A DNA stretch of 64,000 bases from Nitrosopumilus adriaticus (GTDB lineage Archaea; Thermoproteota; Nitrososphaeria; Nitrososphaerales; Nitrosopumilaceae). Under the pieces are notes generated by a model. It did not search any database. It was not told where the DNA came from and saw only the letters and a program-made list of their open reading frames with translations. Below are positions 39,430 to 41,999 of the stretch, piece after piece; position 1 is the stretch's first letter, and each line of letters begins with the position of its first letter. Position numbers and translations under genes: made by a program. The stretch is taken from contig NZ_CP011070.1 of NCBI RefSeq assembly GCF_000956175.1, positions 248,001 through 312,000 on the forward strand, in the 5' to 3' direction.

Positions 39430-40668
39430 ATGTTTATAGAGGAAAAATTGATCTTGACTAGGACATCGTTACAATGTAGAGAATGTAAAAAGGAATATGA
39501 TAACGCTTTCAAGTATATTTGTGATGAGTGTTTTGGGCCCCTTGATGTAAAATATGATTTTCCCCAGATTACAAAGAATACATTTACAAATCGTGAACAC
39601 ACCTACTGGAGATATTTTGAATTATTACCAATAGAGAACAGATCTAATATCGTAAGTATTGGTACTGGAATGACTCCTCTAATCAAGGCTAATAACCTCG
39701 GAAAAAAATTGGGACTAAACAATCTTTACATCAAAAATGATTCTGTTAATCCAACATTTTCATTCAAAGATCGACCTGCAGGCGTTGCAGTATCAAAAGC
39801 AAAGGAATTTGGATTGTCTGCAGTTGGATGTGCATCAACTGGTAATTTAGCATCAGCTACTGCAGCACATGCAGCAAAAGCTGGATTACCTTGTCATGTA
39901 TTTGCACCCAGTACAATTGAGATGGCAAAAATTACACAGGCATTATCTTATGGTGCAAACTATATTTCAGTTGATGGAACATATGATGATGCAAATAGAA
40001 TTGCTGCCCAAATTGGTGACAGTAAAGGAATTGGAATCGTAAACATTAACATGCGTTCTCACTATGTAGAAGGCTCTAAAACATTTTCATTTGAAGTTGC
40101 CGAGCAACTTGATTGGCAAGTACCTGATCAATTGATAATTCCGGTAGGGAGTGGTGCAATGCTTAATGCAATTTGCAAAGGCTTTGAGGAATTAGAAACT
40201 GTTTCATTACTTGATGGTGTTTCTAACATGCATATGATTGCAGCACAACCTCATGGATGTGCCCCGATAGTTGATGCATTTAAGAAAAATTCCAAAGAAG
40301 TAATCCCAGTTGAAAATCCTGATACTGTTGCAAAAAGTTTAGCCATTGGTGATCCTGGTGATGGTCGATATGTTCTAAAACGATTAGCTCAATACAATGG
40401 ATGTGCTGAAGAATGCAACAACAAGGAAATTCTTGATGCGATTTTACTTCTTGCACAAACTGAAGGGATATTTACTGAACCTGCAGGAGGAGTCTCAATA
40501 TCGGTTCTTCAAAAAATGGTAGAGCAAGGAAAGATTGATGTAAATGACAAAGTTGTATGCTATGTAACTGGTAATGGTCTTAAAGCAACTGAATCAATCA
40601 TGGAAATTTTGAAAAAACCTGATGTAATGAAAGCAGACATATCTGAAATATCGGCGGTAGTAAACTAG
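39430..40668 (+). CDS. thrC: Threonine synthase with N-terminal zinc ribbon
   Basis: 412-aa fold-type II PLP enzyme that should turn O-phosphohomoserine into threonine. A zinc ribbon (C-R-E-C with C-D-E-C, residues about 16-35) precedes the catalytic core; the PLP lysine is in F-S-F-K-D-R-P (about 113), and S-T-G-N-L-A-S-A-T holds the cofactor. V-G-S-G-A-M contacts the phosphate. The stop codon shares one base with the next start, so it is translationally coupled to a ubiquitin-like/E1 fusion. Related enzymes synthesise cysteine or cystathionine, so an alternative sulfur role is conceivable. Confidence 0.88.
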   Translation: MFIEEKLILTRTSLQCRECKKEYDNAFKYICDECFGPLDVKYDFPQITKNTFTNREHTYWRYFELLPIENRSNIVSIGTGMTPLIKANNLGKKLGLNNLYIKNDSVNPTFSFKDRPAGVAVSKAKEFGLSAVGCASTGNLASATAAHAAKAGLPCHVFAPSTIEMAKITQALSYGANYISVDGTYDDANRIAAQIGDSKGIGIVNINMRSHYVEGSKTFSFEVAEQLDWQVPDQLIIPVGSGAMLNAICKGFEELETVSLLDGVSNMHMIAAQPHGCAPIVDAFKKNSKEVIPVENPDTVAKSLAIGDPGDGRYVLKRLAQYNGCAEECNNKEILDAILLLAQTEGIFTEPAGGVSISVLQKMVEQGKIDVNDKVVCYVTGNGLKATESIMEILKKPDVMKADISEISAVVN

Positions 40669-41999
40669 TGGCAAATATAATATTTACAATACCTTCTGTA
40701 TTGAATCAAAGTGGAGGAGAAAAAAAGACTGAAATTTCAGCTTCTTCTCTTACAGATGCATTTGCAAAAATTTCTGAGTTGATGGGTGATGATTTTAAGA
40801 GACGTGTATTAGAAGGCGATGGCACGCCACGTTCATTGATTAATATCTATATCAACGGAAAGAATGCAAAATTCTCAGATGGAATGCAAACTGTTCTTAA
40901 AGATGGGGATGAAGTTTATATTTTACCTGCAGTTGCTGGCGGTTCTGAAGATCTATCTTCAAAAGAACTTGATAGATTTTCACGTCAAGTAATGCTTGAA
41001 GAGATTGGATATAATGGGCAATTAAAACTAAAAAATGCAAAAGTTTGTGTTGTTGGAGTTGGTGGTCTAGGAAATCCAATCACAACAAAGCTTGTAGCTA
41101 TGGGTGTTGGAACTCTAAGAATTATTGACAGAGACGTAATAGAATTATCTAACTTACATAGACAAACAATGTTTGATGAAGATGATGTAGGTCAGGTGAA
41201 AGTTGAAGTAGCTGCAAAAAAATTATTGAAACTAAATCCTGAATGTAAAATAGAAGCACTTGCAGTTTCTGTTAATGATTATACTGCACTAGAAGTAGTT
41301 GAAGGATGTGATGTTGTAATTGATGCGCTTGATAGTGTTAATGCACGATATGCATTAAACAAAGCTTGTGTAAAATTTGGAATTCCATTTGTTACTGGAG
41401 CTGCAGTTGGAGTTTCAGGACAAGCATTTACAGTTTTACCAAAAGAATCTGCATGTTACTATTGCATGTTCCCTGATCTAAATGAAGATACAATGCCAAC
41501 ATGTAGTATTGAAGGTGTACATCCATCAATACTTTCTATCGTTGGTGGTATTGAAGTTGCAGAAACTGTAAAAATAATTATTGGAAAAAAACCAAGTTTG
41601 TCAGAAAAAATACTCCATATTGATTTGGAAAATCTTGATTTTAACTCTGTTAAAACATTCAGGGCTGAGGAGTGTCCTATTTGTGGAACAGGAACTCTCG
41701 AAGTTATTCCAAAGGAAGAATTAATTCTAGAAGAATTATGTGGGAGAAACAGAGGAAAAAGAACTTACTCCATAACTCCTACTGAAACATTTGATCTTGA
41801 TGTAAACAGTGTAACTAACATGGCAAAAGAAAAAGGATTCATCGTAGAAAATCAGGGCGGACTTGGATTGTCCTTGAGGACCAATGAATTATCAGTAAGT
41901 TTTATGAAGAAAGGTTCTGCTGTTGTAGTTGGACCAAAAGATGAATCTGATGCTATTGCATTATACAAAAGTCTTTTAGGTAAAGAGATCAAAGCTTGA
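40668..41999 (+). CDS. Fusion of ubiquitin-like sulfur carrier (MoaD/ThiS) and E1-like MoeB/ThiF enzyme
   Basis: Residues 1-92 are a beta-grasp domain ending in A-V-A-G-G, the diglycine that is normally the C terminus of MoaD, ThiS or SAMP proteins. Here it runs straight into an E1-like enzyme: G-V-G-G-L-G-N-P (about 130-137) ATP site, D-R-D-V-I-E-L-S-N-L-H-R-Q, zinc cysteines C-Y-Y-C and C-P-I-C, and catalytic Cys279 in P-T-C-S-I-E-G. The last 90 residues are an extra domain. No rhodanese domain is fused. Start is GTG, overlapping the thrC stop by one base. Confidence 0.88.
   Translation: MANIIFTIPSVLNQSGGEKKTEISASSLTDAFAKISELMGDDFKRRVLEGDGTPRSLINIYINGKNAKFSDGMQTVLKDGDEVYILPAVAGGSEDLSSKELDRFSRQVMLEEIGYNGQLKLKNAKVCVVGVGGLGNPITTKLVAMGVGTLRIIDRDVIELSNLHRQTMFDEDDVGQVKVEVAAKKLLKLNPECKIEALAVSVNDYTALEVVEGCDVVIDALDSVNARYALNKACVKFGIPFVTGAAVGVSGQAFTVLPKESACYYCMFPDLNEDTMPTCSIEGVHPSILSIVGGIEVAETVKIIIGKKPSLSEKILHIDLENLDFNSVKTFRAEECPICGTGTLEVIPKEELILEELCGRNRGKRTYSITPTETFDLDVNSVTNMAKEKGFIVENQGGLGLSLRTNELSVSFMKKGSAVVVGPKDESDAIALYKSLLGKEIKA

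Follow-up and report, generated by a model that had tools for sequence, protein, structure and literature searches.

How can a sulfur carrier function when its active end is buried within a fusion protein? This question is raised by two adjoining genes of Nitrosopumilus adriaticus in a window of 64,000 nucleotides (the whole stretch of DNA that was analysed). The upstream gene is annotated as a threonine synthase and is here called thrC1; the downstream gene (40668-41999) encodes a ubiquitin-like (UbL) domain fused to an E1 enzyme. The genes have one base in common, and the junction letters TAGTGG confirm as genuine the one-base overlap that had been reported in the first-pass annotation. The thrC1 product, of 412 aa, combines a zinc ribbon with a PALP domain (Pfam 240 bits, E 4e-71). 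The fusion gene starts with GTG and encodes 443 aa, with Pfam matches to ThiS up to residue 92 (E 1.9e-8) and to ThiF at residues 104-337. An S-layer-like gene lies downstream of the pair. The coordinates of the individual features are summarized in Table 1.

Table 1. Features of the thrC1/UbL-E1 locus, in positions of the window.
Feature	Position	Strand	Remarks
ThrC1, annotated threonine synthase	39430..40668	+	N-terminal zinc ribbon and fold-type II PLP domain; proposed MetM-type homocysteine synthase
UbL sulfur-carrier domain, residues 1-92, end ...ILPAVAGG	40668..40943	+	ThiS family; 3dwg_C
Internal diglycine, residues 91-92	40938..40943	+	Invariant in 45/45 readable fusions; proposed cleavage/thiocarboxylation point
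UbL-E1 linker	40944..40973	+	8 to 46 residues among relatives
E1 (MoeB/ThiF-type) adenylation domain, two CxxC zinc pairs	40974..41687	+	ThiF E 3e-72; sites invariant in 59/59
Catalytic Cys279 (TCSIEG)	41502..41504	+	Aligns with the ThiF active-site Cys region
C-terminal TBP-like E1 domain	41700..41999	+	Domain named in PMC2948915
Cys358 (EELCGR) in C-terminal E1 domain	41739-41741	+	Invariant in 59/59

Among solved structures, the best sequence match of the UbL domain is CysO of M. tuberculosis (E 2e-10). Its diglycine (GG) is internal, as first noticed from the sequence, and the E1 domain follows from about residue 103, with the small C-terminal domain at the end of the protein. Conservation of the GG in relatives had been named as a test of the idea, and the motif is kept in every fusion with a readable site (PAVAGG in 44, PSVAGG in one); it is constant across relatives, and the length of the linker between UbL and E1 varies. 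In the AlphaFold2 model, pLDDT is below 50 at residues 89-96 and 98-112, and the stretch 89-112 is the lowest-confidence part, so that the GG is predicted to sit within a flexible linker. The E1 has all the features of a MoeB/ThiF-type enzyme (ATP site, Arg, Lys, Asp, two CxxC pairs, and catalytic Cys). The ATP, zinc and Cys sites, described at the outset as intact, proved invariant in all aligned E1s, together with the Arg, Lys and Asp sites. Cys358, which is absent from the first-pass annotation, is likewise invariant.

In canonical threonine synthase, NSxNPxR and GNAGN are the phosphate-binding motifs. ThrC1 is without both and carries instead conserved patterns resembling VNxNxRxYYxEGSKT and [GA]SGA/S, a change that, at the level of sequence, fits an altered holding of the substrate or of the carrier tail. 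A second ThrC (L007), encoded elsewhere in the host genome, carries the canonical NSxNPxR motif in the form NSINPFRIEG, and a second ThrC is found in nearly all family members. Because of this second, canonical enzyme, ThrC1 would not be the housekeeping threonine synthase.

The clade to which ThrC1 belongs extends far beyond the archaea. A query with ThrC1 against 84,980 species genomes gave 77 loci, and when 120 ThrC sequences were placed in a tree, the 83 UbL-adjacent ThrCs all fell within one 93-row clade (SH-aLRT 100) that spans many phyla; UbL adjacency was found in none of the 27 tree rows outside it. Leaving aside the main archaeal set, the clade comprises 73 loci, and a UbL gene lies downstream of ThrC1 in 69 of them, as counted by a stop-to-stop scan in which some UbL frames run into thrC, and one of the four exceptions is a contig end. 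At these 69 loci, the UbL ends exactly at GG in 52 cases, has one to three extra residues in 9, and carries a longer tail in 8. A SAM-I riboswitch (RF00162) is found upstream of ThrC1 at 49 of the 73 loci (within 400 nt at 48), including the Nonomuraea locus (L072), which has a UbL as well. No SAM riboswitch was found at the eight canonical ThrC loci tested, four of which directly adjoin a GHMP kinase labelled ThrB, and no SAM-I riboswitch was found within the host window. A NIL-domain gene lies near ThrC1 at 35 of the 73 loci (Pfam-confirmed on L115); NIL binds methionine and is the regulatory domain of a methanogen homocysteine synthase (PMC12068725). Compared across loci, the carrier, the E1 and the PLP enzyme make up one conserved unit, with methionine-type control in bacteria.

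Nitrospirota clusters also contain a cysteine-synthase-like gene, E1 genes, and a JAMM protease. In Nitrospira (L094:3156-8196, and L095) the row comprises a cysteine-synthase-like gene, E1, thrC1, UbL, an NIL-like gene (in L094), a second E1, and JAMM. The Aliarcobacter plasmid pACIB (L073, 50000-72000) harbors a sulfur island that includes a ThrC from outside the MetM clade, alkanesulfonate uptake, cysteine synthase, JAMM, a MoaD-type carrier, E1, and an encapsulin with cysteine desulfurase.

Conservation within the archaeal class was surveyed in 120 genomes. Wherever a Nitrososphaerales locus with the module was examined, thrC1 immediately precedes UbL-E1, and the gene pair singled out in the first-pass annotation is thus conserved. 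In some Nitrosocaldus-type genomes, UbL and E1 are separate genes, and the UbL has a tail of about 7 to 15 residues past the GG; in close relatives of these split forms, the two are fused via a long Ser/Asn linker. Since deeper members of the class (L054, L170) carry thrC1, UbL and E1 as three separate genes, with a UbL that terminates exactly at GG, the most plausible reading is that the fusion derives from a three-gene operon. Both thrC1 and E1 are missing from nine genomes of the family, and no family genome retains a complete gene of just one; in G109 and G116 the module is absent at contig ends. This co-loss lends little weight to a functional tie, since genes that lie side by side can both vanish through a single deletion or gap in the assembly. 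In G077, a candidate remnant of the E1 was not located at the his locus and was discarded. All nine module-less genomes retain the second ThrC, MetH, both JAMM proteases, and ATP_bind_3 proteins. The presence of MetH and of JAMM does not track module loss, and since both JAMMs are kept, neither is specific to the module.

MetH is found in the host, whose genome (1.8 Mb) is 99.9 percent complete, and throughout the family, which implies a need for homocysteine. MetE (PF01717) was set aside as a pathway marker, being nearly absent from the family, where MetH is found instead. The host genome yielded no genuine Cys/Met-metabolism PLP enzyme (PF01053), with weak aminotransferase-type matches only (best 31 bits), and no match to a DUF39 (HcyBio) protein; with both missing, the host showed no further homocysteine route of a known kind. 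PF01053 is also absent from all 12 module-bearing Nitrososphaerales genomes and is present in G095, a member of the order without the module. It is absent from 26 of 40 ThrC1 genomes outside the order and present in all 7 canonical-ThrC genomes (26/40 vs 0/7 absent; one-sided exact test about 0.002, a value that ignores relatedness and incomplete assemblies).

A search of the host genome for JAMM proteases and for a free SAMP/MoaD had been suggested as a check. Two JAMM proteases (L060, L061) are present. No free ThiS-family carrier appeared at the Pfam cut-off: the two ThiS-family domains above it, in UbL-E1 and in a UbL-Cgi121 fusion, both have an internal GG, so any such carrier activated by the E1 would first have to be cut. 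The UbL-Cgi121 fusion (L002:1453-2226; C1 near 380991), whose UbL ends in HGG and which lies near Sua5-like and THUMP-like genes, is already described in a passage of PMC2948915, and it may also require cleavage.

We consider it probable (roughly 0.82) that the gene pair encodes a putative MetM-type homocysteine synthase and a MetO-type carrier fused to its own E1, acting in methionine synthesis. The E1 would adenylate the UbL at its diglycine and help turn it into a thiocarboxylate. Since the carrier is produced as part of a fusion, cleavage after Gly92 would be required, with one or other of the two JAMM proteases as the likeliest candidate; taken alone, we hold this cleavage to be somewhat better than an even bet. 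ThrC1 would then build a threonine-synthase-like intermediate, presumably from O-phosphohomoserine, and the carrier sulfur would attack its C-gamma to give homocysteine. Several independent lines point to this chemistry, namely the UbL pairing, the SAM riboswitches, the NIL neighbours, the lack of other homocysteine enzymes, and the second ThrC. The suggestion of a carrier-dependent sulfur transfer to an activated homoserine is therefore well supported as chemistry, but not as a new system, for MetM/MetO in Streptomyces was published in 2024. Some observations count against a homocysteine role. PF01053 enzymes are present in 14 of the 40 ThrC1 genomes outside the order, and the MetM homologue of Microcystis made and deaminated threonine in vitro, with no upward change in cellular methionine (PMC12172450). 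The carrier might also act uncut, with the internal GG passing sulfur within the fusion to ThrC1, perhaps via persulfides of Cys279 and Cys358. We regard this as quite improbable; if true, UbL-E1 would be a one-piece sulfur-delivery machine, and the chemistry would be new for a ubiquitin-like domain.

It could be argued that ThrC1 is a threonine synthase of the usual kind, and that UbL-E1 serves some other purpose and is its neighbour by chance. The curated models NF006050 (above its cut-off) and TIGR00260 call ThrC1 a threonine synthase, its predicted structure (AlphaFold2 pLDDT 91) has threonine synthases as the closest solved folds, and the activity of the Microcystis homologue in vitro agrees. 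Yet the second canonical ThrC in the host and in nearly all family members, the lost NSxNPxR and GNAGN motifs, and the UbL pairing, SAM riboswitches and NIL genes that characterise the clade across phyla make this very unlikely, and threonine synthesis was rejected as the role of ThrC1. Production of cysteine from phosphorylated serine by ThrC1 and the carrier, like that by CysM/CysO of Mycobacterium, would be analogous chemistry, with CysO as the nearest solved structure of the UbL. However, SAM riboswitches and NIL domains indicate methionine, the clade is ThrC-like and not CysM-like, and the host has a separate cysteine-synthase-like gene (L006:1363-2600). The latter directly adjoins a gene for a TusA-like small protein, a neighbour that suggests a different sulfur donor for cysteine. 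We therefore judge a cysteine-forming role extremely unlikely.

The main role of UbL-E1 might instead be that of the cell's activator for tRNA thiolation or molybdenum cofactor, with no other close E1 encoded in the genome; its E1 has no match other than itself in the host genome at E 1e-3. Archaeal E1s serve several carriers, and in two distant class members (L052, L053) an E1 without UbL adjoins a ThiI-like gene. Nevertheless, the neighbour of the E1 here is thrC1 and not a tRNA or molybdenum-cofactor gene. The tRNA-thiolation alternative, already raised in the first-pass annotation, is weakened because the PP-loop family of tRNA-thiolation type is retained where the E1 is missing, the ATP_bind_3 proteins of the nine genomes being TtuA/NcsA-type. 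We judge tRNA thiolation, and likewise activation for molybdenum cofactor, unlikely as the main role of UbL-E1.

On our preferred reading, a homocysteine synthase with its own fused carrier and E1, the gene pair most likely supplies a step that was missing from methionine synthesis in archaea that are very abundant in the sea and in soil. Price et al. (PMC5764234) noted that at least one homocysteine pathway still awaits discovery. The proposal offers a testable homocysteine route for ammonia-oxidising archaea and for many Nitrospirota, Verrucomicrobiota and Chloroflexota that are without the usual enzymes, and a large database family called threonine synthase is probably mis-named.

Several known systems resemble the one proposed here. 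In the CysO-CysM-Mec system of Mycobacterium, the PLP enzyme CysM takes sulfur from the thiocarboxylate of its carrier, in parallel to what is proposed for ThrC1, and no protein of solved structure is closer in sequence to the UbL domain than CysO; CysM, however, yields cysteine from phosphoserine, and CysO exists as a free protein whose GG is terminal. Wolinella reportedly makes homocysteine with HcyS, HcyF, HcyD and MetY, a route credited to Krishnamoorthy and Begley in 2011, in which a carrier, an E1, and a JAMM that exposes the GG take part. Its PLP enzyme, MetY, is of the Cys/Met family and is said to use O-acetylhomoserine, whereas that enzyme family was not found in the host. A protein-thiocarboxylate methionine route in Wolinella is cited in a passage of PMC5764234. 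Within the class, a closer match to the Wolinella route is an operon of one relative (L057:2774-5924) with a Cys/Met PLP enzyme (PF01053), a JAMM protease, and a UbL-E1-rhodanese fusion, but there the carrier is fused. The DUF39/NIL-ferredoxin homocysteine route differs in its HcyBio (DUF39) protein, which has no match in the host.

The fusion protein itself has been recorded before. The UbL-E1-TBP fusion of Thaumarchaeota, noted in 2010 in a passage by Makarova and Koonin (PMC2948915), is the same protein, as is the MoaD-MoeB fusion recorded in 2024 in a passage of PMC11237513; the passages found in these two open-licence sources contain no link of the fusion to thrC or methionine. The closest functional parallel is MetM of Streptomyces, which converts phosphohomoserine to homocysteine and has a carrier gene, metO, and an upstream SAM riboswitch (Hasebe et al. 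2024, doi 10.1128/aem.01247-24, as summarized in a passage of PMC12172450). Shared with it are a ThrC-like enzyme with an adjacent sulfur-carrier gene and, before most bacterial ThrC1 relatives, the riboswitch; membership in the MetM clade is judged here by an actinobacterial proxy, the riboswitch-controlled Nonomuraea ThrC1, and not by the MetM sequence. The archaeal carrier differs in that fusion to the E1 leaves it without a free GG end, and the tailed UbL of Nitrosocaldus-type genomes also lacks a free C-terminal GG. We call the archaeal pair a variant of MetM/MetO because its internal GG would require processing. What is new here is the fused carrier-E1 variant across an archaeal order, the association of that variant with thrC in ammonia-oxidising archaea, and the question of cleavage.
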